This document shows positions 34,801 to 54,631 of a DNA stretch of 64,000 nt, one piece after another. Source of the stretch: Herpetosiphon giganteus (lineage in GTDB: Bacteria > Chloroflexota > Chloroflexia > Chloroflexales > Herpetosiphonaceae). Each line of letters begins with the position of its first letter. Position 1 is the stretch's first letter. Made by a program: the position numbers and the translations under genes. The notes under the pieces are model-generated. The model made no database searches and was not told where the DNA came from. It saw nothing but the letters and a program-made list of their open reading frames with translations. The stretch covers positions 1-64,000 of the forward strand of contig NZ_JAFBCZ010000033.1 of the NCBI RefSeq assembly GCF_016907925.1. Direction: 5' to 3'.

Positions 34801-35409
34801 TACCCAATTCTGTTCAGAAGTACCAGTACTGGCAGTAAAGGTGTCGAGTTCGGCGGCAGTAAAGGTAGTATAGGTGTCTAATGGACGTTCGCGTTGATCT
34901 GTTATAGCACGGCGAATACTAACAGTACTTGTTACGTCATCACGGGTTGCCGTACCTGAATGGCAGGAATCGAGGATCACCACAATGTGTGGGTCTTTGG
35001 CGGCAACCTCAGCAATAAGTTTACCCAGTTCTTTATCAGACAGATCATAGTGATTAGGAGTGCGGCTGTCGTAGCATACTAACGTCTCGTTTAATCTGTC
35101 CGGCTCAAGATGCCAGAAAATCTCTGGAGCTGGCTCTTGCGATCCGTGTCCACAGTAGTAGAAAAGCGCTACGTCGGTAGCATTAGCCTTACTAAGATGT
35201 GAACGAAAACCATTTATGATGCCTTTGTATGTTGCCTGTTCATTAGTGAGCGGAAGTACATCAAGGTGATAGCTAGTGCCAGCGACGCGTTCATACAAAA
35301 AATTTTCAAAGGAACTAATATCGTTAACACAGCCATGGAGTGATCGGATCTGAGGCGCAGCGTACTCATCAATACCAACTAAGAGCGCATAGATCGTGGG
35401 AGTACTCAT
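31816..35409 (-). CDS. Caspase fused to alpha/beta hydrolase (lipase-like), last gene of six-gene operon
   Basis: A 1197-residue protein. Residues 1-290 form a caspase/metacaspase domain: LLVGIDEY start, catalytic His in YYCGHGSQ near 86, Cys in LDSCHSG near 147. Residues about 300-900 are beta-rich with repeated strand pairs and no recognised family; the section near 520-640 mentions tidy immunoglobulin-like spacing. The last 290 residues are an alpha/beta hydrolase: LYIHGIIGD oxyanion region near 921, nucleophile elbow HSMGG near 997 and a candidate catalytic His in PCDHLTYF near 1176. So one chain carries a protease and a likely lipase or esterase. A plausible reading is that proteolysis frees the hydrolase. 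AGGAGC before the ATG supports the start; the Hsp70 gene ends 89 bases upstream. Confidence 0.85.
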   Translation of the reverse strand: MSTPTIYALLVGIDEYAAPQIRSLHGCVNDISSFENFLYERVAGTSYHLDVLPLTNEQATYKGIINGFRSHLSKANATDVALFYYCGHGSQEPAPEIFWHLEPDRLNETLVCYDSRTPNHYDLSDKELGKLIAEVAAKDPHIVVILDSCHSGTATRDDVTSTVSIRRAITDQRERPLDTYTTFTAAELDTFTASTGTSEQNWVALPAGKHIVLSACYDSETAKELSIDGQSRGIFSYALLKTLRQSGHSLTYRDLFKKVEMLVKNRVQNQTPQVEATASNDLDRPFLGGAINRSSYFTLAYSGDKGNWTIDGGSVHGIPLTTTPETTRLAIFPLTSTADELSKLDKALAMAEISMVLPQASVVSIKAADEGSLVNDETYKAIVISIPIQRLGVVLEGDRAGLALVEDALAQSGGGGQPSLYLQLVTEPSLAQLRVLARTNSYAITHPYSSRPLTIDVSGYDSEQALIVVRRLEHIARWSTVAELENPGSSLDGAVRLEIYGVTGAPGVRSQSDQSQQTEVFPDNANIRLEYRYNQTRQRWEPPAYKIRLVNTTSRTMFCTLAFLSEEFGIDTNSYFRGGTVRIEPKTTVESQGEVWANEGMPIPSEIPADLLKQGMTEYQDQYKLIISTEPFDATLLEQDELDIPLALRDIRTNFPTSLDKLLSNVRARKPIKAGLCDEYVDWATSEASITIVHPGMSVALPKPGDEPRELLNNGAVIVSLASHPALEGRVRLTTLPHMSRDLGTQAQPALLRDMPQDTFLYQFTTSRSNDPGLSVIELLDVVNYQAVTPEAPLLLNIITIESRDTVLRSDTALLPYAFDGEFFLPLGHSVRTADGFQVVLRHLPPPILANDSSDLEIGDRSLTGSIRILLQTVIRRRLGKPERYPLLRSATVSDDGIVSYEDNTKVIAEQVAAAQRIVLYIHGIIGDTTGMVASSRPINFPETGALKSVVDHYDLILAFDYENLQTSIETTATKLRERLAAVGLKPGHHTQFHIIAHSMGGLVSRWFIEQLGGKDVVQHLVLLGTPNGGSPWPVYQDLGTILLGLGLNMAPELGWTAQILSGLVSLIEHVDVTLDQMHPTSTFLSGMAENADPKIPYTVIAGNTSLIPRLQSPEAHKRFHRLIQRLTQAFSQETLHRLASLAFDDQPNDIAVAVSSVRNISPRSKEPIRFIEVPCDHLTYFSTQVSLESMIPNGVI

Positions 35410-35498: not shown

Positions 35499-37082
35499 TT
35501 AAATCGCATAATCTTCGGCTTCGCGAATCATTGCATTAATATCGTTTTCACTTAATCCAAGCGTCCCAATAATGGTAAGCTGTTTAGAATTTCCAGTGCG
35601 ACTATTCTGCCCTGATACATGAATAATCCCATCGGAGTCAACCCGAAAGACTACCTCGATAATAGGTTGACCAGCAGGTGCTGGCTCGATACCTCTTAGC
35701 ACAAATTGCCCTAGTGGTTCGTTCTCAGCAACTTTAGCTTTTTCGCCTTGAAATATTTCAACCTCGACCTCTTCTTGACCATCAGCAACTGTTGAGAATT
35801 CCATCGAAACTTCCACGGGTACAGGAGTATTACGTGCAATCAATGGTTGCATAAACCCACCTTTTTTGCGTACGCCTAGGGTAAGTGGTACAACATCAGC
35901 CAACTTTATCCCTGTATCCTCACCTGCCAGCATAGCCCCTTGCACCGCTGCACCTAATGCGACCACCTCCTCCGGTGGAAGATCGGTGTTGGGAACACGG
36001 TTAAAGAACTTCTCCACAGCACTGCGGATCAGGGGCATACGAGTCTGCCCTCCTACTAGTAGAACCTCTTCAACATCTGATGGCTGTAGTTTGGCATCGG
36101 CCAATGCCTTGCGGCAAGGCTCCAGAGTGCGCTGAATAAGTGGTTCGGCGAGTATTTCTAGCTGTTGGCGGGTTAATTTCACATCCAAATCGTCCATCTT
36201 GATAGAAGAGCTAAGAGGTCCGACAACCTGAATGCGGGTTGTAAGTTCAGTAGAAAGCTCTGTCTTGGCACGCTTTACTGCTGCTCGCAAGAGGGACAGG
36301 GCATGAACATCGTTACGCAAGGCAGTGGACTGCGATCCGTCTATCTGATCCAACACCCACTGAACAATTACCCTATCAATATCATCACCACCAAGGAGCG
36401 TGTCCCCGTTAATAGCCCGTACTCGAAATGGCCTGCGTCCGAATGCCTCTAAAAGTGAAATATCAAAGGTACCACCGCCTAGATCATAGACCGCGATAAC
36501 ACGACGATCTTCAGAAGATTTTTTGTACCCATATGCTAGGCAGGCTGCTGTTGGTTCGTTAAGTACCCTTGGTATATTTAGGTGAGCAATCTGCCCAGCA
36601 TCAAGAGTTGCTTGACGCTGCGAGACATGAAAGTAGGCAGGCACAGTTACTACCGCTTGGTTGATTGAGTGGCCGAGTTTATACTCCGCGTTACGCTTCA
36701 AATGTTTTAAGATCTCCGCTGAGACTTGGTGGGGTGTTAGGTGGTAGCTACCAATTACCGCCGCGATTCCGCCTCTCCGCCGTTTTGCAGCTTGCACCTC
36801 ATACGATACATATGACTTATGAAGAGCTTCTTGCACAATTTCATCATCATATCGCCTACCCATAAACCGTTTGATAGATCGAATTGCGGCGGTCGGTTCC
36901 CTTGCCGCAATAGATTCTGCCTTGTAGCCAACCTCAAGTTGCTGGATTTCAGTATTAAGGGCAACTATGGAGGGAATAATAGGATTGCCCTCAGGGTCGG
37001 GGATAATTCTAGGCTCGCCATCTTTCCAGATAGCGATAGCTGACTTGGTTGTTCCGAGGTCAATTCCAACAATTATGGTCAT
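35499..37082 (-). CDS. Hsp70 / DnaK-family chaperone, short form
   Basis: A 527-residue Hsp70. The ATPase domain is complete: phosphate loop [12 protein letters not shown] at the N-terminus, VTVPAYF near 145, [10 protein letters not shown] near 200 and [11 protein letters not shown] near 335. The substrate-binding beta domain follows ([19 protein letters not shown]), but the helical lid is reduced to about 30 residues, against more than 100 in DnaK (about 610-640 residues). Residues around 110 contain a basic insertion (AKRRRGG). No DnaJ or GrpE gene is near, so it is not the housekeeping chaperone. In this operon it could keep the protease effectors inactive or help assemble the giant sensor. 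AGGAGA four bases before ATG supports the start. Confidence 0.9.
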
Positions 37083-37130: not shown

Positions 37131-39059
37131 TTAGGAGTGTTGGTAACGGTAGCAACTTACGCCAGCAGATGTGCCAACCCATAGTTCACAAGTGCTTCCT
37201 ACGACACGCACTGAGAGGGCGGTAATCCAGTCATCAGCCAGGCCCGAGTTTTCGCTTGTAAAGTGCGATGGCTCAATGCTGGTAGTTAGTGAACTGTCTA
37301 GCAGAGGATGTCGCTCAAGGCCATTTTTGGTGCCCAGCCAGAGTCCGCCTTCAGATCCGGGATTGAAGGCTAGAGCGTAAATTGATGAGGTACCAAAGCG
37401 ATGCCAGTCAGGGCTACTAAACAATCCTTCATCTGTGCCAACCCACAACTCATTGGTGTGTGGATCAAAGGCCAATGCCTGTATAGAACGGTGCTCGAGT
37501 TCGCCCCGGACCAACTCAAGCTGATCAATATCTGGGCGATATGCGAATAATCCGGCGGCTGTACCGATCCAGATAATGGCGTTGCTTGTGCCTTTTGTAG
37601 TGGGAGGCTGGTAGCACATAACCTGAATAGCTGGATTTGGGGCAAGATATCCCTTCCACGTGGAGTTGCCGTAGCTACGTCCATACAGTGCATCGGGTGT
37701 GCCCATCCATAAACCTCCACTCCTATCCGCCGCCACTGCCAGTACATGGGTAGTGGGTGAGAATATTGGGAGATCAAAACACTGCTTGATATAACGTAGC
37801 CCGCTCTGTCCCGCAGCGACCCACAACTCATCAGGGTTGGTACCAGGAACTAGTGACCGGATATTCCAGGGGAGTGGCTCGTTCCCATTGCTGCTATTGA
37901 CTTTATGCCATTGACCTGCATTAAAATAGAATAATCCTCGGGCTGTGCCAGCCCAGACCGAATCTGCGTCAGAATAGAGGCATTGGATACTATTGCTCAG
38001 CTCATCTTCGGGATCTTGTCTAAAGGCTGGAGTGAGGCCATTCGTTTCCACCCGATAGACTCCCTCAGATGCGATGGCCCAGATTGAGTTCATTCCATTC
38101 AATATGCCGCTACCAAGTAGTTGTGGGAGGACTGTCGCAGATGGCCCGCTTTCCCAGACACCATTAACAATTCGACCTACTCCACTGACCGTTGATATCC
38201 ACATTGTGTGGTTATTTCGATCGAGCGTCAGGCTGAGAACTTCGGATATCATACCTTGAACAGCAGTCTCATACGAAAAGCAGGTGGGATCGAGGCGATA
38301 CAATCCCCAGTTTGTACCGATCCATAACATCATATCAGGACCGTAAGATAATGCTCGGATTTGTATCCTCAGTCCACGATTACCCTCCTTGTCAATCGAG
38401 AGATCAACAAAACGGGGCTTACTAACACCAGTATTATAGTACAAACCCCAGTCTGTTCCCAACCATATAGAACCATCAGCATCGGCCAAAATTGCTGATA
38501 CATCGCCTTCTACACCATCCAATATCCTTGCTGGCTGTAAGTCAAGTTTATCGACTAATGGGTCGGTTTCAGCTATCGCTATACCCCCATTAACATGCCG
38601 TAATACGGCAACGATGCCACCACTAGGGCGCGCAATAACGTGCTGTGCTCTCCAGTCTAGCCCGGTTTGATAACACTGCCAGCCATCTTTCGAATTAAGA
38701 GTAAGTTTACAAATCGCACCGCTTTGCGTTACGGCCCATACATGTCCCGCTTGCTCCACCGCAATGCTTTGAATCGGATTACCAACCAATCCGTGTTCGC
38801 TGTTGTGCCGGATTACTTGCCGCAAGGCGGGTGACCAGCAGAGTATCCCCCCCCACGTGGCAATCCAAAGATTTGTTTGTGAATGATCCAAAACAAGGTC
38901 ACGCATTTGAGATTGACTAGAGAAGGTTGTCCAGTTGGGATACGGTGGTACTGAAGGAGCAAATTGGAAATGGCTATTGATTTGCACATATGAGGCATCA
39001 ATGGGTTGTATCTCTCGTAGTTGCCTGGGCTCTATTGCGCGGGCTTCTGGATCAGCCAT
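37131..39059 (-). CDS. Reg_prop-type beta-propeller protein
   Basis: A 642-residue protein made almost entirely of repeats of the two-component-regulator propeller kind: LWIATWGGI, IWLGTDWGLYYN, LWIGTNWGLYRLD, VWAGTARGLFYFN, IWIGTAAGLFAY, LWVGTDEGLF, LWLGTKNGLER and LWVGTSAGV, enough for one or two seven-bladed propellers. No signal peptide, membrane segment or kinase domain is present, unlike the usual hybrid sensor kinases with this domain, so it is a free cytoplasmic propeller. It overlaps the coiled-coil gene upstream by eight bases. Binding of a ligand or partner protein is the likely role. Slight truncation is not apparent. Confidence 0.85.
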   Translation of the reverse strand: MADPEARAIEPRQLREIQPIDASYVQINSHFQFAPSVPPYPNWTTFSSQSQMRDLVLDHSQTNLWIATWGGILCWSPALRQVIRHNSEHGLVGNPIQSIAVEQAGHVWAVTQSGAICKLTLNSKDGWQCYQTGLDWRAQHVIARPSGGIVAVLRHVNGGIAIAETDPLVDKLDLQPARILDGVEGDVSAILADADGSIWLGTDWGLYYNTGVSKPRFVDLSIDKEGNRGLRIQIRALSYGPDMMLWIGTNWGLYRLDPTCFSYETAVQGMISEVLSLTLDRNNHTMWISTVSGVGRIVNGVWESGPSATVLPQLLGSGILNGMNSIWAIASEGVYRVETNGLTPAFRQDPEDELSNSIQCLYSDADSVWAGTARGLFYFNAGQWHKVNSSNGNEPLPWNIRSLVPGTNPDELWVAAGQSGLRYIKQCFDLPIFSPTTHVLAVAADRSGGLWMGTPDALYGRSYGNSTWKGYLAPNPAIQVMCYQPPTTKGTSNAIIWIGTAAGLFAYRPDIDQLELVRGELEHRSIQALAFDPHTNELWVGTDEGLFSSPDWHRFGTSSIYALAFNPGSEGGLWLGTKNGLERHPLLDSSLTTSIEPSHFTSENSGLADDWITALSVRVVGSTCELWVGTSAGVSCYRYQHS

Positions 39060-39819
39060 GGGTCACCTCTCCGCCAATTTTGGCTTTCAGTTGCTCTTGT
39101 AGAACGTCGATCTTCTTTTGTAAGCTTTGATTTGCAGTTAGCTGCTCAACGGCAAGATTATCGAGAAATTGTTCCCATTGATCGGTGGTTAGGAGCTGAC
39201 GGTCTTGCCACAAAGCGTAGGTTGAATCTTTTTCAAGCCGCCGTACCTTGATCTTCCAGAAACCCAATCGATCGTTTAGTGCTTGTTGCCAGGTATTAAG
39301 GCGGCTAAGTTGATCATCCAACGTTTCATATGGAGTGCGTTGCAACCAGATTGCACCCCAAGTTAACAATTCTAAGATATTCCCTATATCCTGCTGATCG
39401 TCAACTACACAGGCATTGATCTGTTGCATAATCATTTCGTGATCCTCAAGCGAGACAATCTCCTCCAGATAATCAGCCAAGTCGCGTTTACGTTTATCGC
39501 GCAGGTCTGCCGTTAGATTCTGAGCAGGGACTTGTGTACTGGCGATAGGGATATTGACAACAGTTGATGCTGTTGTCGAGGTCTGATTATGCGCCTTTGG
39601 TGGAGTAACTATAGGTTTGAGTTGTATTCGCAGATCTTCAAGCCGTTGATTGAGTTCAACGGCTATGCTGTTGAGAGTCTGGAGGCGAGTTGCATACTCC
39701 CTACTTACTGTAAACAGTCCGGCCTCAATTTGCACGGCACGTTCTCGAACAGCAATGATCTCTTCCAAAATGTGCTTAAGGTTTTCGAACATTGCATTAA
39801 TCTGATCCTGAACTGTCAT
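39052..39819 (-). CDS. Coiled-coil protein of unknown function
   Basis: A 255-residue protein, mostly helical. Residues 1-70 (QINAMFENLKHILEEIIAVRER onward) and the end (LQKKIDVLQEQLKAKIGG) show heptad spacing of coiled coils. A low-complexity Thr/Ser/Pro linker lies near 75-105, then a central helical domain with a conserved-looking WGAIWLQRTPYETLDDQL stretch. No enzyme motif. Excellent ribosome binding site (GGAGG six bases before ATG). Placed between the active CHAT protease and the propeller and overlapping the latter, it may be an adaptor that links the two. Not recognised as a known family. Confidence 0.7.
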   Translation of the reverse strand: MTVQDQINAMFENLKHILEEIIAVRERAVQIEAGLFTVSREYATRLQTLNSIAVELNQRLEDLRIQLKPIVTPPKAHNQTSTTASTVVNIPIASTQVPAQNLTADLRDKRKRDLADYLEEIVSLEDHEMIMQQINACVVDDQQDIGNILELLTWGAIWLQRTPYETLDDQLSRLNTWQQALNDRLGFWKIKVRRLEKDSTYALWQDRQLLTTDQWEQFLDNLAVEQLTANQSLQKKIDVLQEQLKAKIGGEVTHG

Positions 39820-39834: not shown

Positions 39835-41052
39835 TTACCACAGTTGAATTTTTTGATCTGAGACGGCATATAGTCCATATGCCAATCCTAAGGGATTATT
39901 ATAGTGTTTTAAGAAATAGAGGCGCGTTGCTAACAAGACCTCAGCAAGATACTCCAGACGATAAATCTCTACATTTAGCTCTGCGGCATCTAAGATCGCG
40001 TGAACTTCCCGCGAGGGATTTGGACCAGCCAAAAGCAGTTGATAAAACACACGGGCGAACTCACTAGCGAATACATCGGGCATCGTACATGCTGTCGCAA
40101 TCACACTGCCAGCTCGAAAGTTAAGAAAGGCACTTGGTAAACTAATTGTCTGCAGCAGATGCCCCAGATTTTGAGTCTCACACGCATTCACAAAAATAAA
40201 AGGATTATGGCGAAAGCCCTTCTTTTTATAGTTCAGGAGGTCAAGGATCGAGATTTCCAAGTCTTTGTTATGCACGGTAAGATTAAGCGAAGCCTTTGTT
40301 GCTCCAGCATAGGCTGGATTATTACAGTGGCATGCAAAATGAATGATTCCATAGGGGAAATTTTGGTCGATAAATAGCTCCATCAATGTATCTGAGGTTA
40401 GTGTGTCAGCAGATAAAGCCTGATCAAGCAGAGTCATTTTTAATGCTATGTCTAGAGCTGTTAGATTGGTACGAAGATGCTCTACCTCTTTAGACGATGC
40501 AATTAGTTCACTATGAATGCCTGCTAGAATACCTTCACGAAGATTGATGAGCTGAATCATAACAGTATCCCAAAAATAGCGACCCAGTGGATAGCGAAAA
40601 CCCCAGAAACATTCAGGATCAACCTTTCCGGAAGGATCACCGCTGTACAGAACCTCCCATATTAAATTCAATTCCATTGGTATTTCTAATGTAAGTCTGG
40701 GCGGTAAATTAGGGTTCTTATGATCTTCATTGAGGAAATGGGTCTGCGTTATCTCATCAGATAGGATTGTATTATAGGCTGCGAGGCCAATTTTTCGCAG
40801 CTCGGTAAGGTAATTCGACTGCCCTGTTAAATCAACCCCTTTTCTTTGGACATCCTTACGCAGTTTATCCAAGACATTAATGATTTCATTGTTTAGGTTT
40901 AAAATATCTCCAGCAGCAAAGCCAAGCGAAAACCTCTGCCCATTAATTCGTCCATGCGATGCACCAGGTTCGATAGTCATGCCGATTCGCATGCGATCTC
41001 GGGTGGGATCTTTTCTTGGTCCAAACGAATCAGATGCTTTGAGATTACTCAT
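39835..41052 (-). CDS. CHAT-domain protease with intact active site
   Basis: A 405-residue protein. The N-terminal 120 residues are helical (EIINVLDKLRKDVQRKG). The CHAT domain carries LIWEVLYSG near 155, catalytic His in IIHFACHCNN near 241 and catalytic Cys in FVNACETQN near 290, followed by GSVIATACTMPD. Both active residues are present, in contrast to the two CHAT-like regions of the giant protein encoded just upstream. The start at 41052 is chosen because it overlaps the giant gene's stop by eight bases with GGGGGA eight bases upstream; a TTG at 41082 and ATG at 41070 are alternatives. It is probably the proteolytic output of the system, held or activated by the giant scaffold. Confidence 0.85.
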   Translation of the reverse strand: MSNLKASDSFGPRKDPTRDRMRIGMTIEPGASHGRINGQRFSLGFAAGDILNLNNEIINVLDKLRKDVQRKGVDLTGQSNYLTELRKIGLAAYNTILSDEITQTHFLNEDHKNPNLPPRLTLEIPMELNLIWEVLYSGDPSGKVDPECFWGFRYPLGRYFWDTVMIQLINLREGILAGIHSELIASSKEVEHLRTNLTALDIALKMTLLDQALSADTLTSDTLMELFIDQNFPYGIIHFACHCNNPAYAGATKASLNLTVHNKDLEISILDLLNYKKKGFRHNPFIFVNACETQNLGHLLQTISLPSAFLNFRAGSVIATACTMPDVFASEFARVFYQLLLAGPNPSREVHAILDAAELNVEIYRLEYLAEVLLATRLYFLKHYNNPLGLAYGLYAVSDQKIQLW

Positions 41053-44000
41053 ACGCGGTGTCCCCCGCATCTTTATCGGCAACAGTAAAAGAGATCTGCA
41101 TAGTCTTTAGATACTCATTATCCTGAAAAAATTGAGCATTGAGTCGATATATTCCTTGCTTGGGTGCCATCAGCCTGATTGTTGCTGCAAGCATCTGCTG
41201 GCTAACCATCTCCATCGCTATTGGATCCGAAAAAGCTGGCTCCAAATTTGGTGCCATAAACAGGACTGTCATGTTGTCCGGCAGTTTCTGGACTCGTACT
41301 AGACGTTGATGATGCCACTCTGGTGGTGCAAGTCGAACGCTAGCTCGGAAGGTATAGGCTTTATGAGACTGCAAGGGATCATCGTCATCAAGGCATTCCA
41401 GGACAGTGTAGCCATCACTCACTTCCGGCTGATAGGGTCTCGCTTGGGGATTTCCAAAAGATGTATAGGCGAGAGCATCGGGATTTCCTGGCAGTGCTTG
41501 AACTACCGCATGCCGCGCCCTATGTAAGGCTACACCTAACGTCACATTTTGGAAACCGAGTAAATCGTAGAATGTGGACCAGAAGATTCTGTCTGCAGCA
41601 GCACATGTCGACCACCAAGGACCTACTACTGCGCTTGCCCCTGCCCGAAGGAAAGGTAGTACCCGTTCCGGTAACAGCCATTCGTCATCATCAGATGTCA
41701 TCGTAGTGCTACGAAGCATGCTGAGGGTAATTAATGGCCGTTTCCGTTGGAGATCCAGTCGTGCGCGAAAGGTCTGTTCGTGTAGTTGAGATTCCTCCTG
41801 TGCCAGCGATACTCCTCGGGGCATAATCTCACGCCCGGTGGTGGTATCAATAGCACGCAGCACATGTAATCCATAGAATCCCTGGTCTGGGTCGGCCACA
41901 GTACCAATATCATTAGTCAATTTCGCACCCAGCAGCTGTGCCCAGCGAGCCGGATTCGCGTGGGCAGTAGCAGTATTTTGGTAAGTTGCAAGGGCTAGAT
42001 CACCAATGACTATCTCGGGATACATGATTGAGCCTAATCCATGAATCCAGCGGCTTAGTTCGTAGCGCTCGCCCAGAAAGCGTGGTGCTTGGTCATCCTG
42101 GTAGGGTGCCACCAATTCCCAAGGTAGCCAAATATTTCCTTGCTCGACAATCAGCCAATTGGTAATGGACTCCGCATTTAACCAGAAGTGCTCACGAAAG
42201 GCGGCGGCTGTATTCAGTGGGAAGAGGAGATCGTAGAGGTAGGTGCCAAAACCCAGTAGAATGGCCTGTGCATCCTTTGGCGCAGCACTAGAGGCATGAT
42301 GTCGTGCAGTAACAAGCATGGATTGAAGGCGGGAAATCGCGCCTGATGGCAGCAGGCATGTACCGACATCAGCAAGCCAAAGTGACTTGCCCCTCAGGCG
42401 ACTGCTAAGACGATAGGTCAACATGCAAGAGCCATTCGCTCCATCAGGTAGGTGAGTGTCAACCTGAAGGAGAAAAGGTGGCAACATACCGACCTGCACA
42501 TCAAGCCTTGGCAAAGGTGTTGGAAACTCGGTATAGGCTGGTGCATCAACACTGATGGTATATTCATTACTCTGATAGCGGGTACGCTGACCTGTCTGTG
42601 GGTCCTCTATATAGAGATCGATCGTAAAGGTATGCTCTCCCGGAAGTTTGGCTTGAAGCTCAAACTTCTGCGTTATAAAGGTACCATCGATGCGGCGAGT
42701 CATGGTGGCAAGATTGGGGCTGCAAAGGTGCATTAGAGTGTCAGTAGGGCTGATAGCGCAATATACCTCATCAAGATTGACTGGTAGGGTAATCGGACCC
42801 TCCATCGCTATTAGTACTGCAGATACCTGCACAGTTTGGCCAACTGTGCTGCGTAACGGTAGATTAAGATTCAAGCCATAAGTAAGTGGAACAGAGCGAA
42901 CGGATAACACCAAACTATCTAATACAAACACTTTGCCGCTCGATCCGGTGATCTCAATACTGCTGACTCCCTCAACCATATTGTGGTCGTCGTTGTTAAT
43001 CCACTCGTGCCATATACCACCACGCGGGAACGGCACATCAAGGTACTCGGTGTTGATCCCAAAATTCAGCACTACCACAACGTGGCTGCTCTGATCATCG
43101 CTCCAGCGATAGTAGGCCAGTAGCTTACGATCATCATCCATTATGAGTGGAGCAATATTGTTGCCAAACAGTGCTCTGCACTTGGCATGCAACTGGCTCA
43201 TCCTGCGATAGAACGAATGCAGGTCGTTGCCCTGAGCATCCTGAAGCAACTCCCACTGCAGCTTGTTTTGCTCAACAATGCGCTCAGTTTTCATGCCGAA
43301 CTCTTGGCCGTGGTAGAGCATTGGCACACCGACAGCGGTAAATAGGGTAATCGCGCCCAACTTGGATTTGTGGTACATGATGTCTGGCTGAATGTTGGGG
43401 TTATTCATAACTTCATAGAATAGTCGCTGCTCATCATGCATCTCGATGAAGTTAATCATCTGGGGGTCGCCAGTATAACCAATGGCTCGAAAATGACGCA
43501 TGGTTTCATATAAGTCGGCGTATTGTTTGCCATTAAACTCGCTCTCTCGTAAGTTAGCAATCATTTGGTTGCGGAAGGGGATACTCCACGAAGCATCGGC
43601 ATCGGTATTGCGTACCATTGAGGTGTAGTCGTCGGTGTTCTCGACGATCAGATACACGTGCGATTTAACCTGGCGGGCCTGCCAGGTTAAAAACGAGATG
43701 CCGTTCTCGCCGTGATCCCCGATCCCGATCGCGTAGTAGTAGCGCAAACCATCGACGTGCATATCCACCAGCCAGTAGGTCTGCACATCGCTCAGCAACT
43801 GCTTGACTATCTCACTCTGATGATTGAGCGTGGGGAATCCCCATGGGCTAGCATCGCTGCTAAAGTAGGGATTTTCATCGTAAGGATAGAGATAATTAAT
43901 TGGACTTGAGCTATCAATAAGACTAAATACCACATCAAGAAATATCCCAATGCCGTGCTGATGAGCCAGATCGATTAGATCGCGTAGATCATTGAGTGTA

Positions 44001-47000
44001 CCGTAGCTGGTCTTGGGCGCAAAGTAATAGGATGGATTGTATCCCCATGAATTATCACCGGGAAATTCAAAGATCGGCATCAGTTGAATAGCAGTTACCC
44101 CAAGGTCTTGTAGATAGGAAAGTCGCTCAATAATGCCTTTGAAGGTGCCTTCAGGACTAAAGTCACCGACGTGAATTTCGTAGATCAACAGCTGATTAAG
44201 AGGCTTGATAAGAAATCCATCGTCATTCCACTGATAGGTGCTGGTACCGACACGGATGATCGTGGCCGGCTGGGAACCGCCAATCCAGCGGACCTCGCGG
44301 GCGTAGGGGTCGCCAATGATGGTTTTGCCATCGATCACAAACTGATACGCGTGCTCGCCGGCCGGCAAATTCTTGACAATCCACCAGATGCCCTGCTTGG
44401 ATACGGCCAGTGGGTCGGCGGTGCGATCCCAGCCGTTGAATGAGCCGATCAGGTGGATGCTTTTTTTCCCCGGTGCGTACAGCGCGAAGCTGACCTTACC
44501 CTCGCTGCGGTCGTAGGCTCCCATCCAAACACCTTCAGGAAGATTTGCCTTAATAGGCGGGATTGGAAGCGTCCAGAAGCGTGCTGTAGTATCGCGTGAT
44601 GCAGAGATTGCTGTGCGACTGTCAGGTGTTACAGCGATGCGGTACACAGCATCGCTGTGTCCAGTAAATGTTTCTAAGACGGCACCAGTGGTTGCATCCC
44701 AAACAATCACATTTCCATTCTGCGACCCTGCTAAAATCATCTGGCCATCTGGTGTGATTGCAACGCCCGTGAATCCATCTCTATCAGTAGCTATAGTGCG
44801 TTCCTGAACACCTGTCACAATATTCCATAGCCTTAATGTGCCATCTTCCGACGAAGAGATGACCAATCGACCATCGGGTGTAACCACAATATGTCGGATT
44901 GCGCCAGTATGTCCAGTTAATGTACGCTGTGCTTGACCTGTGTACAAATCCCAGATTCTTAATGTACGATCTTCAGATCCAGATATTGCTAAGTCTCCAC
45001 GGGGCGTAACCGCTACAGTCCATACACCTGCTGTATGTCCAGCGAATGAGAATATTAACGCTCCCGATTCACTATCCCACACTCGTACCGTTTGATCGTC
45101 TGATCCTGAAACGATACGCCTATCAGAAGTCATTGCAACTGCAAATACGGCTGCACTATGACCAATACACATCGACACAGTAGTTCCAGTTTCTATATCC
45201 CAAACCCTTATCGTTCGGTCACTGGATGCTGATGCAACTCTACTACCATCAGCGTTAATAACTGCCCCCCATACCGCCGCAGTATGGCCTATGAATGTTC
45301 GTACCAACTCACAGCTTTCTGCATCCCATACTTTGATTGTTGTATCTATTGAACCAGTAATGATCAAGCGACCATCTGGTGTTACAGCAACTGATTCTAG
45401 ACTCGATGTATGACCAAATAGTATTGTTGCTTGATCTGCTGCCAGCGCAAGATGTGTGCTATAGTGATTCCTCGCATAGACACGCCGTGCCTGCTCGATG
45501 GGGTCACGATCATCAGTCCAAATCGCATCCCCATCCTTCGCACACCAGTCAGCCAGTCGTTGGTGCCAACGTTTGACTTCGCGGGGATTGAACACCGATG
45601 CCGTCAAATAATCGCGAAAGAGCAGGTGATGCAGCGCAACCCGTTGATCGATCCCTTGACTGACCAAGCCCCCCAAGACCCACACGGCATCCTGCATGGT
45701 ATCGTAGTCATGTCCCAGTAAATTACCGAGCACAGCCAGCCGGAGTGGTTCTTGGGCCACGAGCAATAGCGCCAGCATCGGTTTCCAGACCGTATCCCAT
45801 TGTGTCTGTGATCGACTCTTCATCCGCTCTAAGGTAATCCCAAAGAGATTGCTGGGATTGTGATCAATCTGCCGAGTCAAACTGATCGCATTGACCACCA
45901 ACGCGCCCTGCATCGTATCCGCCGCCAGATGGACAAACAACGCATTGCCCTTCAGCGCGGTATAGAGATCATGCAACAGTTCATTCTCCACATCAGGCTG
46001 GACGGATCGCCACAGTGCCAAGGCATCTGGCTCGCTGAGTGGTGGCAGATCATAATCGACGCGATGCAGAATCTCCAGCGGTTTCAAGGTCTCATCGGGC
46101 CGTGAGCCAAGCACGATCACGATGCCTGGTGGCGGCTGCGGTGGGAGAAAGGATAAATCGCGCGAGCCGTCACTCTCAGGCTGTAATTGATCGAGGTCAT
46201 CCAGATAGATTGTCTCGTGAATTCCTTGCTTGGAAAGATCATCCAGAATCCGCACAAATTCGCCCTTCATCGCCGGATAGCTTTCTTCGGGGAAGTAGGA
46301 AACGGTGAGATTGTGTTTCAGAATCAATTGGGCCACCACGGCCCGCAACAAGCCCAATTGATACTCGCGGCCTGTCGTGAGGGCAATAAAGTGGTGGGGT
46401 GTTTGCGCAATTCCCGCTTCCTGAACCATTTTTGCAATGATACTGCTCTTGCCTTCGCCTGCCGCCGCCTTGATCAGCACATAGCCACCCGTGGAGCGCA
46501 TCGCTTCGATGAGCCCGCGAATCGCCGCCAGTTCGTTGACCCGACCAACGAAGCCCTGAAGGCGCAGCGTCAGGAGGCGATCACTCTCGATTTGCTGCGC
46601 CGCTTTCGTGATGCGTTCGCGGTCGCGTTGGGCAAGTGGATCAACGGGCTGTGGCGTTTGATCTCCCCACAGCTGGCCGTGCGGAACCCGACTATACAGA
46701 GTTGGAAATCCCCATGCTCCATGCTTATGGCCATCGGCCAAAATCGCCTTGCGAGCCGCAATCAATGCCTGATCAATTGATCCGCTCGTGCCCAAGGTGG
46801 CATAGAAGGCGTTGGCAAAGCAGTGTCCCGTCCGATTCAGGATCACGGCCTGCATGCCAATCACGGCGGGAATGCGATCGGTCATAAAAATAGGAGCAAA
46901 GCTGGTGAGGAGGTTCTCGCCAGCGCTGAAGACCACCAGTTGCACCCCTGACTGATGGATCATGGTGCTGAACTCGCGGGCCGAGAGGCGATCACGCGAC

Positions 47001-47716
47001 TGGTCGGCGCGTTCGATGTCGAGGTAGCCCATGCCCCGTTGGATGTTGCCATGGCCGATGTGGTGCACGATATGGGGTCGCTGGTTGGTGAGCAGATCGG
47101 TCAAGCGGTCGCGCGTGAGATGGGGGATTTCGATCAGATCAATTGGTCGTGAGCTATGCGTGATGGCAGCACGGATGATTTCAACTTCGGCTTCCGCCGC
47201 AATCGGGAGGTTTGCCAACTCCATAGGCAAGGCCGAGGTCACGGCGAGGCGGATACGCTCACCCGAGGAAATACCCAACGTGGGAATCGGATCATTCCAC
47301 GGAAAGGTACGCACGAGCGCATGTTCCAGCATCAGGGGACGGCCCGCCTCAGTCGCCATCAATTCCCAAGGCAGGGCGGCGGCTGCGCTCAGGCGGGTAT
47401 CGGTATCAATCGCCAGCTGGATGCGCAACGCCGCGTTGTGCTGGTCGGCGTGGGTGCGAGCCGTGGCAAAGGCTTCGGCAATCGTTCCTTGAAACAGGGT
47501 TTGGTACAGGAGTTGGCCAACCGCGATGACCACTGATTCATCAATCGGTGTGTGATAATCCAGCGCTGTCTGGTAGACGGTCAGCGTCGGATCATCAAGC
47601 GGCAGCAGCAGCGGTTCGCTGACCTCATGCCCTGCTTGGGTACGGGCAGTCACGGGATAGCGATCCCCGTGGGGGGCGGCAATCGTGAGATGGAAGGATT
47701 CAAAGGCGCTGCTCAT
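41045..47716 (-). CDS. Giant sensor: CHAT-like / P-loop NTPase / WD40 / CBM48-GH13-like / CHAT-like
   Basis: A 2223-residue protein. Domains with approximate residues: CHAT-like 20-370, with His kept (HHIGHG near 219) but the Cys box reading FSAGE instead of NACE; NACHT/AAA-type NTPase 400-700 (Walker A AAAGEGKSS near 421, Walker B IYLDDLDQL near 505); seven WD40 blades 770-1055; CBM48 1058-1130 (LIGSFNGW); GH13-like barrel 1170-1540; beta-rich linker; second CHAT-like domain 1850-2110 (WLPWELV, AGASAVVGPWWS) lacking both His and Cys. In the GH13 part the nucleophile Asp is replaced (GLRYYYA near 1325) and DVVFSL lacks the usual His, while the acid Glu (LIVEN) and MHD remain. Hence both protease parts and the glycosidase look inactive. 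Start 47716 is ATG with GAGGG upstream. First gene of the six-gene operon. Confidence 0.88.
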   Translation of the reverse strand: MSSAFESFHLTIAAPHGDRYPVTARTQAGHEVSEPLLLPLDDPTLTVYQTALDYHTPIDESVVIAVGQLLYQTLFQGTIAEAFATARTHADQHNAALRIQLAIDTDTRLSAAAALPWELMATEAGRPLMLEHALVRTFPWNDPIPTLGISSGERIRLAVTSALPMELANLPIAAEAEVEIIRAAITHSSRPIDLIEIPHLTRDRLTDLLTNQRPHIVHHIGHGNIQRGMGYLDIERADQSRDRLSAREFSTMIHQSGVQLVVFSAGENLLTSFAPIFMTDRIPAVIGMQAVILNRTGHCFANAFYATLGTSGSIDQALIAARKAILADGHKHGAWGFPTLYSRVPHGQLWGDQTPQPVDPLAQRDRERITKAAQQIESDRLLTLRLQGFVGRVNELAAIRGLIEAMRSTGGYVLIKAAAGEGKSSIIAKMVQEAGIAQTPHHFIALTTGREYQLGLLRAVVAQLILKHNLTVSYFPEESYPAMKGEFVRILDDLSKQGIHETIYLDDLDQLQPESDGSRDLSFLPPQPPPGIVIVLGSRPDETLKPLEILHRVDYDLPPLSEPDALALWRSVQPDVENELLHDLYTALKGNALFVHLAADTMQGALVVNAISLTRQIDHNPSNLFGITLERMKSRSQTQWDTVWKPMLALLLVAQEPLRLAVLGNLLGHDYDTMQDAVWVLGGLVSQGIDQRVALHHLLFRDYLTASVFNPREVKRWHQRLADWCAKDGDAIWTDDRDPIEQARRVYARNHYSTHLALAADQATILFGHTSSLESVAVTPDGRLIITGSIDTTIKVWDAESCELVRTFIGHTAAVWGAVINADGSRVASASSDRTIRVWDIETGTTVSMCIGHSAAVFAVAMTSDRRIVSGSDDQTVRVWDSESGALIFSFAGHTAGVWTVAVTPRGDLAISGSEDRTLRIWDLYTGQAQRTLTGHTGAIRHIVVTPDGRLVISSSEDGTLRLWNIVTGVQERTIATDRDGFTGVAITPDGQMILAGSQNGNVIVWDATTGAVLETFTGHSDAVYRIAVTPDSRTAISASRDTTARFWTLPIPPIKANLPEGVWMGAYDRSEGKVSFALYAPGKKSIHLIGSFNGWDRTADPLAVSKQGIWWIVKNLPAGEHAYQFVIDGKTIIGDPYAREVRWIGGSQPATIIRVGTSTYQWNDDGFLIKPLNQLLIYEIHVGDFSPEGTFKGIIERLSYLQDLGVTAIQLMPIFEFPGDNSWGYNPSYYFAPKTSYGTLNDLRDLIDLAHQHGIGIFLDVVFSLIDSSSPINYLYPYDENPYFSSDASPWGFPTLNHQSEIVKQLLSDVQTYWLVDMHVDGLRYYYAIGIGDHGENGISFLTWQARQVKSHVYLIVENTDDYTSMVRNTDADASWSIPFRNQMIANLRESEFNGKQYADLYETMRHFRAIGYTGDPQMINFIEMHDEQRLFYEVMNNPNIQPDIMYHKSKLGAITLFTAVGVPMLYHGQEFGMKTERIVEQNKLQWELLQDAQGNDLHSFYRRMSQLHAKCRALFGNNIAPLIMDDDRKLLAYYRWSDDQSSHVVVVLNFGINTEYLDVPFPRGGIWHEWINNDDHNMVEGVSSIEITGSSGKVFVLDSLVLSVRSVPLTYGLNLNLPLRSTVGQTVQVSAVLIAMEGPITLPVNLDEVYCAISPTDTLMHLCSPNLATMTRRIDGTFITQKFELQAKLPGEHTFTIDLYIEDPQTGQRTRYQSNEYTISVDAPAYTEFPTPLPRLDVQVGMLPPFLLQVDTHLPDGANGSCMLTYRLSSRLRGKSLWLADVGTCLLPSGAISRLQSMLVTARHHASSAAPKDAQAILLGFGTYLYDLLFPLNTAAAFREHFWLNAESITNWLIVEQGNIWLPWELVAPYQDDQAPRFLGERYELSRWIHGLGSIMYPEIVIGDLALATYQNTATAHANPARWAQLLGAKLTNDIGTVADPDQGFYGLHVLRAIDTTTGREIMPRGVSLAQEESQLHEQTFRARLDLQRKRPLITLSMLRSTTMTSDDDEWLLPERVLPFLRAGASAVVGPWWSTCAAADRIFWSTFYDLLGFQNVTLGVALHRARHAVVQALPGNPDALAYTSFGNPQARPYQPEVSDGYTVLECLDDDDPLQSHKAYTFRASVRLAPPEWHHQRLVRVQKLPDNMTVLFMAPNLEPAFSDPIAMEMVSQQMLAATIRLMAPKQGIYRLNAQFFQDNEYLKTMQISFTVADKDAGDTAYE

Positions 47717-47766
47717 CGTGACAAACCCTCGGCCTGCTGGCACTGTGTGGTTAGCGGTGGTGTCTT

Positions 47767-48743: not shown

Positions 48744-49082
48744 ATGGATTTCCCCGCGTTCATGACCATCGTGGCTGATGCCATTCTTGCCCACTGCCCG
48801 CAGTATGATCGTGCGAGTGTTATGGTGGCACTCAAATCGGTGTTTGCTGGCCATCCTGCGCTGCTTGGTGGAAATACGATCTCCATGCTGTTTGGCCAGA
48901 ACAATGATTTTACCAATGCCACGGTGACGATTGGGGATGTGCATGCAGGCCACACGATAAACGTCCACCTCCCGCAGCCGCTTGATCCGACCCTCGCCGC
49001 GTTCATTAGCCGCTTGATCCGACCCTCGCCGCGCTCATTGCCCGTGCCTCGTTACCTGCCACCATCCACCATGGGGATATGA
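48744..49082 (+). CDS. Adaptor-like domain protein, 5' part of a split adaptor-NB-ARC gene
   Basis: A 112-residue protein. Residues 5-90 match a domain inside the NB-ARC/TPR protein at 6288-9326 (its residues 145-230): both have a helical start (ADAILAHCPQYD), GHPALLGGNTISMLF, then GDVHAGHTINVHLPQPLDP. The last 25 residues are out of the original frame because of a 32-bp tandem duplication at 48978-49041; without it the frame would run straight into the NB-ARC gene. The stop overlaps the next start (ATGA), so the two halves can still be translated in sequence. GAGG eight bases before the ATG at 48744 supports this start over a TTG at 48738. Probable function: homotypic contact with effector-associated domains. 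Confidence 0.6.
   Translation: MDFPAFMTIVADAILAHCPQYDRASVMVALKSVFAGHPALLGGNTISMLFGQNNDFTNATVTIGDVHAGHTINVHLPQPLDPTLAAFISRLIRPSPRSLPVPRYLPPSTMGI
48978..49041 (+). repeat. 32-bp tandem duplication causing a frameshift
   Basis: Two copies of a 32-base unit beginning CCGCTTGATCCGACC start at 48978 and 49010 and differ at only three or so positions near the end. As 32 is not a multiple of three, the reading frame after the second copy is shifted; the second copy is in the frame of the NB-ARC gene. Confidence 0.85.
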
Positions 49083-50362
49083 CGATCAACGAGAGTAGTG
49101 TTTCAGGGATTGCCGTCCGCGACAATTATGGGCCAATTCATCAGACGATTCACCAGCATCAGCCGCATGATCCGCTACCTGCTGCCTTCGCTGCGCTCGC
49201 CTCACTTCCGCTCGACCATGTGCCCCAACCCCGTGCGGATTTGCCTCACGCCTCGCGCCTGCCCTTTGAATCGAGTCCGCACTTTGTCGGTCGTGAGGAT
49301 GAATTGAAACAGTTAGCGGCGGCGATTGGCACGGCGCAGCCAACGGTCATCATGCCAGCAGTGGCTACGGGCCTTGGTGGGATTGGCAAAACGAGCCTCG
49401 TGACGGAATTTGCCTATCGCTATGGGGTCTATTTTCATGGCGGGGTGTTTTGGCTGAACTGTGCCAACCCTGATCAGGTGGCGAGTCAGGTTGCGGCCTG
49501 TGCGCTTGGCTTGAAGATTGATACCACGGGTTTGTCGCTCGATGAGCAGGTACAGCGGGTGCTGAACGCGTGGAAATCCCCGATGCCGCGCTTGCTGATT
49601 TTTGATAACTGCGAGGATCGTGCGGTTCTCAAACGGTGGAAGCCCACCGTCGGCGGGTGTCGGGTGCTAGTGACGTCACGATCCAATCAGTGGCCAATGC
49701 TGACGCAGATCCAGCTTGGGCTGCTCTCACCCGCCGAAAGTCGATCACTTTTGCAGGCGCTCTATGCTGACCTCACGGATGCTGAAGCTGATCTGATTGC
49801 CACTGATCTTGGGCATTTGCCGCTCGCTTTGCATTTGGCAGGAAGCTATCTCCATACCTATCGTCCTGCCATCTCGGTGTATCGTGTTGCCTTGGGTATT
49901 GCCCATGAATCGTTGCACGGGCATGGGGCGTTTGACTCGCCAACCGCGCATGAACAAAATGTCGAAGCGACGTTTATGCTCAGTTTTAATAAGCTTGATC
50001 CAGCCAACGCGATTGATGGATTAGCCTTGCGCATACTCGATGGGGCGGGGTGGTGTGCGCCCGGCGTGCCAATACCACACGATTTGGTGCGGACATTCGT
50101 GCCGAATGAGACGACCCAGACTGCGAGGATTGATGCGGTACGGCGCTTGCAGCAATTGGGATTGCTCGATGACACCGAAGCCGTGGTGCTACATCGCTTG
50201 CTTGCCCAAGTTGTTCAAGCACGATTAGGCTCGCCTGAAACGTTGGGAGTGGTAGAAGATAGTATTTATGCTGCGGCATACAATGCGAATGGGACAGGTC
50301 ACGCTAAGCCACGACATGATGGCTCTGGAACATTCTTGGTGCAACGGCTATGCTATGCTTGA
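49079..50362 (+). pseudogene. NB-ARC protein truncated by the ISL3-like element
   Basis: 427 codons remain, of which the last 20 or so come from the element. Visible: a short linker with DNYGPIHQTIHQHQ, then the NB-ARC chassis shared with the three other NB-ARC proteins here (PRADLPHASRLPF, GLGGIGKTS near 105, RLLIFDNCED near 175, GHLPLALHL, LHRLLAQVV). The TPR sensor that follows in the paralogues is missing, because the element starts at 50300 inside the region just before the repeats. The gene is also separated from its adaptor domain by the 32-bp duplication. Sequence is closest to the gene at 6288-9326. A truncated NB-ARC without sensor is unlikely to be regulated normally, so it is called a pseudogene. 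Confidence 0.8.
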
Positions 50363-52109
50363 GGTATGCATGAACTCCAAACCACGCTTCAAGCACTCGT
50401 CGTCGGCGATGATGGGATAACCATTGATACGATCACGACGCAGGCGCAGCACTGCCAGATCGCAGCGCATTGCACGACCAGCGTCGCGGCGTGTCCGACC
50501 TGTGCCACCCCATCGTCGTCGGTGCATAGTCGCTATCGCCGCCGCCTTGCCGATCGCACCGTCGGCACGACATCGATCACCCTTCAGCTCACGGTGCGGC
50601 GCTTTCGCTGTCGCCATCACGGCTGTCCCCAGCAGATTTTTACCGAACGCCTTCCAACCCTCGCCGCTCCTCGCCAGCGCAGCACCATTCGGCTCACCCA
50701 CGCCGTTCAAACCATCGGCCTTGCCCTTGGCGGACGGCCAGGAGCGCGGGTTGCCCAGTCACTCGGCATCCCAACCAGCCACACCACCATGCTGCGTCGT
50801 ATCCATCACCTGCCCATCCCGCCCATCACCACCCCAACCGCCATCGGCATTGACGAATGGGCGTGGCGCAAACGCACCGCCTATGGCTGCATTGTCGTCG
50901 ATTTGCAGACGAATCGCGTCCTCGATCTCCTCCCAGACCAAGCGCAAAGCACGATTGTCGCATGGCTCCGCCAGTATCCATCCATTCAGATTGTCAGTCG
51001 TGATCGCGGTGGTGGGTTTGCTGCTGCCATTACCGCTGCGCTGCCGACCGCAACCCAGGTGGTTGATCGCTGGCATCTCATCAAGAATTATGGCGAAGCC
51101 CTCGAAGCCGCCTTGCTGAGCAAACGGGCGGTACTGCGGGCGGCTTGTGCTCCGCCTGAAGCACCTGCGGCTGTGCCCTTGGTCGATCCCTTCGTGGGGG
51201 CACTGACCCGCACGGGTCGCCATGGGCCGGATGCCCCGATGCTGGAGGCCGCGATCGCGGTGCGACGCGAGCGCCATGCGGTGCTGTGTGCCCTGCATGC
51301 GCAGATTCATGCGCTGCGTGCCACTGGGGCCGATATTGTGACGATTGCCAAGATGGTCGCAACCAACCGCTCGACCGTCTATCGCTATTTGGCCATGGAC
51401 AGCCCCCTGATTGGGTTCAGCCCCTACGGCGGACCACCCTTGACCCGTACAAGGAATTCCTCTTGCAGCAATGGAGTGCGGGATGCGAGAGTCCGCGCCA
51501 GTTGTGGCGCATGATTCGCGCCCAAGGCTTCACCGGAGCTGAGGTCGCGGTGCGGCGGTATCTGGCGTTGATGGGCTGTCAAAAAACCAAACCACGGACG
51601 ATCATCCATCCAACCCACGCCTTGAGTAATGGACGGATTCCCTCAGCTGGACAAACCGCCCAATGGGTGCTGCTCGCGCCCGCACGCCGCACGGCCAGCC
51701 AACAGGCATTTTTGGATGCGGTTGCGGCGGCAGATCCCGACTGTGCCACGCTGATCAGGCTCAGCGAGCAGTTTCTGGCCATGATTCGCGCCCATGAAGC
51801 GGCGGCGCTCACAGCATGGATCACGGCGGCGGTCACCACAACGGGGCATATCCAGCGCTTTGCGCAGCGGTTGCGCCACGATGAAGCAGCGGTTCGCGCC
51901 GGGATTGCGGGGCCATGGAGCAATGGGCCAGTCGAAGGGCAAATTCATCGGTTGAAGCTGCTGAAACGGCAGGCCTATGGTCGTGCTAGCCTCGCACTGC
52001 TGCGCATCCGCCTGATCGCTCAGCCCCCAGCGGCATCACCTCCATAGCCTGCCGTCAAGCGCCGTTGCACCGAGAATGTTCCAGAACCACCATGTCGTGG
52101 CTTAGCGTG
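50300..52109 (+). mobile_element. ISL3-family insertion sequence
   Basis: An element of 1810 bases with terminal inverted repeats of about 49 bases that agree at 46 positions (left end CACGCTAAGCCACGACATG, right end its complement). It carries one transposase reading frame with a frameshift. The 8-base flanks do not match, so no target duplication is seen and the right flank is not the continuation of the NB-ARC gene; deletion or rearrangement after insertion is likely. The outer 20 bases of its ends make up the palindrome at 31452-31495. Confidence 0.85.
50366..52047 (+). pseudogene. ISL3-type transposase with a frameshift
   Basis: Frame one (50366-51514) gives the zinc-ribbon (CPTCATP near residue 45, CRHHGC near 85) and the DDE_Tnp_ISL3 core (IGIDEWAWRK near 165, the first Asp; VSRDRGGGF near 210, the second Asp; VVDRWHLIKN near 235). 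Frame two (up to 52047) continues with LDPYKEFLLQQW, a helical part and the final Glu region (NGPVEGQIHRLKLLKRQAYGRA). The switch needs a -1 step at the run of five C at 51403-51407. Family members normally have one frame of about 500-550 residues, so loss of one C is the simplest explanation; a programmed slip or a sequencing error cannot be excluded. Confidence 0.75.
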
Positions 52110-52472: not shown

Positions 52473-53636
52473 TTATTCCAGAACCAGCCGAATGGCTTCG
52501 CCGAAGGGAAATGCTTCGCTATCAAGGCCGCCAGCAACCACCACCCACAATAAAGGATAATCGGGGGGCATCTGCGGAAAGCTGCCATAGCCATCAGTCA
52601 GATAGACGGCAACTACTGGCATATGGGGGCGAATTAAGCCCTCAAGTGCTTGAAAGAAGGGTCGGAAATCGGTGCCGCCACCACCGATTGGCTCAGGAAT
52701 CGGGCTATGGGCGGTTAGTTGAAATGGCCCATGAGCCTCGGCATCAACATAAAAAAGATCACAGTTGATATGCGGATACGAGCGCAAAATCCCCTGCACC
52801 TCATCCATAAATAAGTGTAAATGGCGCTCATCGATTGAGCCGCTGGTATCCACCGCCACAAAGACTTGGAGACTCTCGCCAGCTAAGGCATCTAAGTAGA
52901 GACCCCGACTAATAAAACGCCGATCAAAGCCCACAAAATCGGTAGGGGTTTGGACTAAATAGCGCCATAAATAGGTACGCCAATCGAGTTTCTCTGGGTC
53001 GGTGCTGCTCAACTCACGGCGCATGCTGCTTGGCAAACTACCTTGAGCCACCATGAGCGCAATCAGATCAGCTTGGTGGCGAGCATTTCGCCAGTGAGCT
53101 TCAAGCACTGCATTGCGTTTTGTACCGCGGGTTTCCTGTTCAAAACCGCCTTGGCCACTCAGCCCTGAGCGATCAGCCTCGGTTGCTTCGAGCAAATCGA
53201 GCGAGTCGGTCAGGGGGTAGCGGCTGGGGTCGCGCACTAGTAATTCGTAGACTTCTTCGACACTTAATGCTTCAAGTTCAGGGTCGCGCAGTGTCATAGG
53301 GTCGCAGCCAATACCCTCAATTGTGCTGACAATGCCATTCAGCACAATATCGCAGGCAGTGTTCCAAATGCGTGGGTTGCGACTGCCACGGCGTGGAATG
53401 TGCAACAGCGCTGCATGCAACACCTGATGCAAGATCAAGCGATCTTGATCTTGCTGGCGCAGGGTGGCGAAATAGTCTGGGTTGACGTATACCCGTTCGC
53501 CATCGGTTGCTGTCTGATTCACATTGGTTGCAGCCACCACTGGCGCAAACAACACCAGCGTTGCAAAGTAGGCCGAACGGGTGCGCAGCCGCAGCACCGA
53601 CGCACTAATCATGCTGTCAAGTTGGCTGGCACTCAT
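52473..53636 (-). CDS. VWA-like / DUF2201-type protein partner of MoxR
   Basis: A 387-residue protein. The N-terminal 200 residues resemble the putative metallopeptidase half of the DUF2201 family, but the zinc motif reads HQVLH (near residue 70) where H-E-x-x-H is expected, so catalysis is doubtful. The C-terminal 140 residues form a VWA-like domain with an intact MIDAS start VAVDTSGSI near 255 and YLTDGYG near 345. The start at 53636 overlaps the MoxR stop by four bases (ATGA) with AAAGGA upstream; an in-frame ATG at 53768 lies within the MoxR gene and is rejected. MoxR-VWA pairs act as protein-remodelling machines. This is the last gene of a three-gene set. Confidence 0.8.
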   Translation of the reverse strand: MSASQLDSMISASVLRLRTRSAYFATLVLFAPVVAATNVNQTATDGERVYVNPDYFATLRQQDQDRLILHQVLHAALLHIPRRGSRNPRIWNTACDIVLNGIVSTIEGIGCDPMTLRDPELEALSVEEVYELLVRDPSRYPLTDSLDLLEATEADRSGLSGQGGFEQETRGTKRNAVLEAHWRNARHQADLIALMVAQGSLPSSMRRELSSTDPEKLDWRTYLWRYLVQTPTDFVGFDRRFISRGLYLDALAGESLQVFVAVDTSGSIDERHLHLFMDEVQGILRSYPHINCDLFYVDAEAHGPFQLTAHSPIPEPIGGGGTDFRPFFQALEGLIRPHMPVVAVYLTDGYGSFPQMPPDYPLLWVVVAGGLDSEAFPFGEAIRLVLE

Positions 53637-54631
53637 GCCAACATCCTTTGATATTGCTGGAAGAAGGCTTGTAATTGTGCATCGCCTTGAACATAGGCAG
53701 CAAAGGCTCCAATTTGGCCCTTGAGCCGTAATTGACGCATAATATCGGCAATAAAGACCTGTACCCATTCAGTTGGGGCTTGAGCAGCCATCCAACAAAA
53801 GGCTTGATAGGCGCTATCGGCGGTTGAAGCCCGTAAGGTCAAGCCGATTGTATTGGCATAGCGTGCGCCTGGCTCGCTTGGAAAGGCAAGGCTTGAGCCT
53901 TCACCACTGAGAATCGCATCAAAATCAGGTAGCGTTTGATAGAGTTCAGTATAGGAGTAAAATTCAGCCGCTGCATCAATGCCCACCACTGGAGCAAGAT
54001 CAAGCTCGGCTTGGTAAAGTTGACTTGCCATAACCCACGAGCGTGGTGATGGCCAAGCTGGATGCTGTGGATTAAGTTTGTGCAACAGGGTTGGCCGGAA
54101 TGAGAGAAAGGCAATTACCTGCTCGGCAACATTGGCATTTAGGGCATAGGCTTTGAAACTATCAAAATCAGGTGCGACTTCGAGGTGAACAAAGCGATTT
54201 GCCAAGGGTGCTGGCATATCGAATACCGAGGCGCGATCCTCTTTGCGATTGCCTGCCGCCCAGACAAACCAGCCCTCAGGCAGGGTGTACGAGCCAACCC
54301 GCCGATCAAGAATCAATTGTTGGGCAACCCCTTGCATGGCAGGTGGTGCCATGTTTAATTCATCAAGAAACAAGATGCCTTGCCCAGTTTGGGGCAGGAA
54401 TTCTGGTGGGAACCAGCGGGCAATGCCGTTATCGGGCACTGGTAAGCCTCGCAGATCGGTTGGTGCAAGCTGCGATAAGCGCACATCAATAAACTCAATG
54501 CCACTATGCTGGGCAATTTGCGCCACGATACTCGATTTACCAATCCCTGGCGGCCCCCAAATCATGGTGCTGAGATAAATCTTTTTTTGCACCAGGGTAT
54601 CGAGGTAGTGTTGTAATTCTAACGGATTCAT
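53633..54631 (-). CDS. MoxR-family AAA+ ATPase
   Basis: A 332-residue ATPase: Walker A GPPGIGKSS at residues 26-34, Walker B ILFLDELNMAP near 88, sensor 1 VWAAGNRKED near 130, and the arginine-finger region PLANRFVHLE near 150. The helical lid follows, ending in a long C-terminal helix. It should form hexamers and work with the VWA-like protein encoded next (ATGA overlap) and with the repeat protein encoded before it (also ATGA overlap), so the three subunits are made in series. Its sequence is of the MoxR type proper, distinct from the chelatase-I-type ATPase at 12673-13644. Confidence 0.88.
   Translation of the reverse strand: MNPLELQHYLDTLVQKKIYLSTMIWGPPGIGKSSIVAQIAQHSGIEFIDVRLSQLAPTDLRGLPVPDNGIARWFPPEFLPQTGQGILFLDELNMAPPAMQGVAQQLILDRRVGSYTLPEGWFVWAAGNRKEDRASVFDMPAPLANRFVHLEVAPDFDSFKAYALNANVAEQVIAFLSFRPTLLHKLNPQHPAWPSPRSWVMASQLYQAELDLAPVVGIDAAAEFYSYTELYQTLPDFDAILSGEGSSLAFPSEPGARYANTIGLTLRASTADSAYQAFCWMAAQAPTEWVQVFIADIMRQLRLKGQIGAFAAYVQGDAQLQAFFQQYQRMLA

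Follow-up and report, generated by a model that had tools for sequence, protein, structure and literature searches.

The closest described counterparts of the locus analysed here are of several kinds. In plant NLRs with integrated decoys, an NLR-type receptor has incorporated a host protein as a dead or altered copy, and in the pairing of cFLIP with caspase-8 a pseudo-protease scaffold is joined to a live relative. Within the conflict systems of multicellular bacteria, inactive enzyme copies that have active counterparts have been proposed as decoys (Kaur et al. 2020, PMC7159879), and in Craspase the CHAT protease, TPR-CHAT, is controlled by a large partner (PMC9729208).

The window, a stretch of 64,000 nucleotides of the filamentous bacterium Herpetosiphon giganteus (assembly size 6.16 Mb), contains an operon that shares features with each of these. 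Its first gene (41045–47716, minus strand) encodes a protein of 2223 aa, here called the scaffold, with the domain order CHAT1, STAND-type NTPase, WD40, CBM48-GH13 and CHAT2. These parts are of known kinds; their combination seems to be undescribed, and the library searched yielded no publication that deals with a GH13 decoy or with the scaffold operon. A preliminary description of this DNA had read the protein as a chain of pseudoenzymes. That reading is supported, as residues Asp1327 and His1266 of the GH13 domain are lost in the fused copy only and neither CHAT domain has its dyad.

Domains of the scaffold and loss of the CHAT dyads

The scaffold reading frame (41045–47743, minus strand, as are all of its domains) is unbroken, with the ATG at 47716 as the probable start. 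CHAT1 occupies residues 1–360 (46637–47716), with the Pfam match itself at residues 66–332 (E 5e-18). Residues 361–765 (45422–46636) form a STAND-type P-loop NTPase with the motifs AAAGEGKSS, which is P-loop-like, and YLDDLDQL, and are 67–86% identical to Herpetosiphon paralogues. Together with an effector-type N-terminus and C-terminal repeats this NTPase gives the scaffold the build of STAND/NLR-like proteins, its AAA_16-like match (E 5.5e-7) lying slightly under the curated Pfam cut-off. Next come a WD40 beta-propeller of seven repeats recognised by Pfam (44561–45421) and the CBM48-GH13 region (42917–44560), with matches to CBM48 (E 4e-10), GH13 (E 1e-29) and Alpha-amylase_C (E 3.5e-6). The degenerate CHAT2 (41447–42361, Pfam E 5e-4) is followed by a C-terminal tail (41048–41446), which is beta-strand-rich in the model with a local pLDDT of 65–84. 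AlphaFold models of the GH13 domain, built from one sequence (pLDDT 34), and of CHAT2, built from two (pLDDT 42), had no usable fold.

The His of CHAT1 is present (HHIGHG), while its Cys box reads VVFSAGEN, in agreement with the FSAGE noted earlier. DNA alignment to a paralogue (L047) places here the junction (VVF|SAGEN, 46925–46936, minus strand) of an 18-nt in-frame deletion, by which the Cys box was lost relative to paralogues with VVLNACHTSSAGES. Five paralogues whose CHAT1 is 83–90% identical (L047, L049, L052, L053 and L054) all retain VVLNACH. Behind the NTPase these five have different sequence, several with TPR-like repeats and none with GH13, from which it follows that the N-terminal modules have been shuffled. 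Judged from the alignments, the N-terminal modules of the scaffold are part of a shuffled Herpetosiphon family in which other putative sensors stand behind the NTPase.

In CHAT2 the motif HFACHG is replaced by HVLRAID and FLNAC by TLSML, and the catalytic His and Cys are therefore missing. The preliminary description had found neither His nor Cys left in this domain, which is accurate for the catalytic pair; an invariant upstream His is still present. Both catalytic residues are likewise absent from the sole close relative, in Chloroflexales bacterium ZM16-3. The two CHAT domains thus differ in their histories: the loss in CHAT2, common to ZM16-3, is the older event, and that in CHAT1 is recent and local.

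The fused GH13 domain and its stand-alone counterpart

A stand-alone CBM48-GH13 enzyme of 565 aa is encoded in the same genome, and the CBM48-GH13 region of the scaffold is a copy of almost all of it, 65% identical over 549 residues. The matched stretch runs from residue 16 of the enzyme to the second-last, is almost gap-free and contains no stops. An assembly chimera with the stand-alone gene was ruled out by the 35% divergence and by the frame being open throughout. The stand-alone gene is present in every genus member searched and in two further genomes of the family (G025 and G101), and among 158 genomes of the class the window's GH13 copy is the only one in a long frame.

The Tyr, Asp, His, Arg, Asp, Glu, His and Asp of the catalytic site are retained in 20/20 stand-alone homologues, and a leave-one-out control found changes in these canonical residues in none of the 20. 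The fused copy has lost two of the eight. Region I reads DVVFSL, with His1266 replaced by Leu (43919–43921, minus strand) and an Asn by Ser, and region II reads GLRYYYA, with the nucleophile Asp1327 replaced by Tyr (43736–43738, minus strand). Tyr1226, Asp1261, Arg1325, the acid/base Glu1359, His1427 and the transition-state Asp1428 are kept. Over the whole domain 43 of 48 invariant columns are retained, and the two catalytic-site replacements are among the five changes. Among structure entries, the position of the nucleophile holds Asp in 8xx9 and Ala in 8xxa. The domain therefore combines a clear CBM48/GH13 sequence signature with an incomplete triad. The replacements at the nucleophile and the region I His and the persistence of CBM48 had all been recognised beforehand, yet the wording that the barrel is without catalytic residues is too strong, because the acid/base Glu and the transition-state Asp remain. 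A comparison of active-site columns across homologues, which the preliminary description had proposed, singled out the fused copy as the only one changed at the two positions. The preliminary description had also named homologues of the same architecture with an intact triad as evidence against its reading, a case that did not arise: no other protein with the scaffold architecture was found, and it is the single-domain homologues that retain the triad.

The protein branch leading to the fused GH13 is longer (0.32) than that of the sister enzyme from G025 (0.24). Non-synonymous divergence is 0.26, and synonymous sites are saturated, too much so for a YN00 dN/dS. Changes on the fused branch number 4 in CBM48 and 44 in the barrel, against 10 and 21 in the G025 lineage (p = 0.013). 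Against the pooled lineages, however, the same comparison gives p = 0.11, so that a deficit of CBM48 changes is unproven; the counts give a weak hint that CBM48 may be constrained while the barrel is relaxed. No overall enrichment of changes was found in the active-site or conserved regions of GH13 (p = 0.6 and 0.8).

The operon and its occurrence

The scaffold stop and the start of the next gene (39835–41052, minus strand) share 8 nt (ATGAGTAA). That gene encodes an apparently live CHAT protease whose His-Cys dyad is intact (IIHFACH ... VNACET), with HFACH and VNACET conserved in ZM16-3. Further genes on the same strand encode a coiled-coil-like protein of 255 aa with a syntenic homologue in ZM16-3 (39052–39819), a Reg_prop beta-propeller protein (37131–39059), an Hsp70-family protein (35499–37082, E 3e-169) and a C14 caspase with an alpha/beta-hydrolase domain, in which the GHG and DSCHSG motifs are present (31816–35409). 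PADLOC gave a clear match for the caspase and weak matches for most other operon proteins. The preliminary description had missed the operon, and its conclusion that the protein serves purposes other than catalysis can be kept for the scaffold polypeptide but not for the system as a whole, which also includes the adjacent CHAT with both dyad residues and, farther downstream, the caspase/hydrolase gene.

A phage-type integrase gene (29754–30779) lies beside the caspase/hydrolase gene, and this part of the DNA could be a mobile island. On the other side of the operon an IS element (50300–52109) contains two transposase-like ORFs and has inverted ends of 49 nt that are 94% complementary; a STAND-type ORF on the plus strand (49079–50362) extends into it and looks truncated. 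Elsewhere in the window are further TPR proteins that carry an AAA_16-like domain, a caspase domain or both (6288–9326, 14173–18630 and 20123–23176), an ORF at 25594–29085 with a weak DdmD-like match over its C-terminal part (E 5e-9), and polyketide-synthase-type genes at the window end (60002–63962).

In ZM16-3 (G022) the scaffold, live CHAT, coil, propeller and Hsp70 genes occur in identical order, followed beyond Hsp70 by a clostripain-type protease, a hydrolase and a caspase-like protein. The ZM16-3 scaffold (contig L029, 11085–16445) contains no GH13, but also has dead protease domains. Its N-terminus differs, and one end of it resembles the caspase-like protein of its own operon (score 83 versus a shuffled maximum of 58). 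By eye there is no Cys at the expected place, the middle part not being reliably aligned, and this N-terminus seems to be inactive. The comparison of the two scaffolds and operons suggests that dead protease domains beside a live CHAT recur even where the N-termini are unrelated. The C-terminal module and its paired CHAT reached strong scores in only two of 400 Chloroflexota genomes, and a scan of genome contigs with the C-terminal module found ZM16-3 alone. No relative of the fused GH13 was found in the genome-contig scan, nor were GH13 relatives found in scans of viral contigs.

Possible functions and comparison with known systems

Rather than an enzyme, the scaffold seems to be a molecular sensor or bait. 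The explanation that we favour, although we hold it with no more than even confidence, is that the fused GH13 is a captured copy of the cytoplasmic CBM48-GH13 enzyme that has lost its nucleophile, and that a STAND scaffold senses through this integrated dead enzyme and controls the live CHAT in trans. The scaffold would then be an NLR-like protein with its own enzymatic domains dead and with a C-terminal half that serves as sensor or bait. Its dead CHAT domains would act as docking and regulatory partners of the CHAT from the overlapping gene, following the logic of cFLIP and caspase-8. The GH13/CBM48 region, together with the propeller, would bind either an alpha-glucan or a protein with which an invader attacks the enzyme; on contact the NTPase would oligomerise and the live CHAT and caspase-type proteases would be released on cell targets, with cell death or defence as the presumed output. 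Hsp70, the propeller protein and the coil protein may be assembly factors. We favour this explanation because a paralogue with intact residues stands alone in the same genome and in relatives, because all 20 homologues keep the two lost residues with a clean leave-one-out control, and because the gap-poor, stop-free alignment points to fold constraint. It also draws on the in-frame loss of the Cys box inside an otherwise conserved CHAT1, on the live CHAT directly downstream in both genomes with the order kept through Hsp70, and on a CHAT2 that is dead in both, with N-terminal modules from a shuffled family. Counted against it are the remaining Glu and Asp of the triad, the lack of enrichment at the active site, and the rarity of the system, the full architecture having been found once and the operon module in two genomes.

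A narrower form of this explanation, which is that of the preliminary description, makes the scaffold a sensor of alpha-glucan (glycogen): CBM48 and the dead barrel would bind storage glucan and so signal metabolic state or damage to the glucan, with no invader protein involved. A glycogen-like ligand is possible, and the comparison of CBM48 and barrel changes with the G025 lineage favours it, as does the precedent of plant Isoamylase 2, a GH13 protein that serves as a non-catalytic partner (PMC12510319). We nevertheless regard it only as a tentative alternative, given the pooled comparison, an operon that contains no glycogen genes, and a Tyr at the nucleophile and a Leu for His that alter subsite -1, the seat of a glucose. 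Somewhat more doubtful is a full integrated decoy, in which the inactivated near-whole enzyme copy would be bait for the enzyme's attacker and would switch on the live CHAT in trans; both the inactivated copy and a same-cell counterpart with all predicted catalytic residues are at hand. An accidental fusion in a hypervariable island, with the GH13 part drifting as a functionless relic, would fit its occurrence in one genome, the IS, integrase and shuffled STAND modules nearby, and a barrel that changes faster than in sister lineages. It is unlikely in view of 553 open codons at 65% identity with almost no gaps, a non-synonymous divergence of 0.26 beside a saturated synonymous one, and the 43 invariant columns retained. 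Continued GH13 catalysis with another acid as nucleophile, for example the new Asp1334 (Phe in the alignment) in the same loop region, would fit the retained Glu1359 and Asp1428, but the nucleophile position is invariant in the homologues, position 1334 lies seven residues further on and the region I His is lost too, making this highly improbable.

With STAND/NLR-like conflict proteins and the MoxR-vWA (VMAP) systems (PMC7159879) the operon shares large modular proteins, protease domains, an NTPase switch and propellers. It differs from the latter in having neither VMAP nor a MoxR/vWA pair: an AAA_5 (MoxR-like) ATPase and a DUF2201 metallopeptidase/VWA protein are encoded at 52473–54631 (minus strand), separated from it by the IS element and plus-strand ORFs, and the ORFs listed near the ZM16-3 operon include no such pair. 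The words amylase and CHAT are absent from the text of that publication. Unlike in Craspase, there is no gRAMP or CRISPR component and the partner is another one; PADLOC gave no Cas-type match among eight operon-region queries, and the CHAT gene has no TPR. The fused GH13 shares domain order and sequence with TreZ (the GH13 malto-oligosyltrehalose trehalohydrolase), branching enzyme and the alpha-amylase 8xx9, but differs in the missing nucleophile and region I His and scores far under the equivalog cut-offs.

The locus is a clear natural example of a putative dead sensor domain with an ancestor that can be named. The stand-alone GH13, predicted to be active, persists in the genome that carries the fused copy, so that the two can be compared pair by pair for what was lost, which surfaces were retained and what they bind. 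The operon also lets one ask if pseudo-proteases act in trans as regulators of a live CHAT, a likeness to cFLIP and caspase-8 that here concerns the CHAT family instead of caspases, with the putative pairing suggested by gene order. As in plant NLRs with integrated decoys, a dead copy of a host protein stands in an NLR-type receptor, but here the receptor is bacterial and what it has captured is a carbohydrate enzyme; should the decoy interpretation be true, the principle known from plants would hold in bacteria too, the bait there being a metabolic enzyme.
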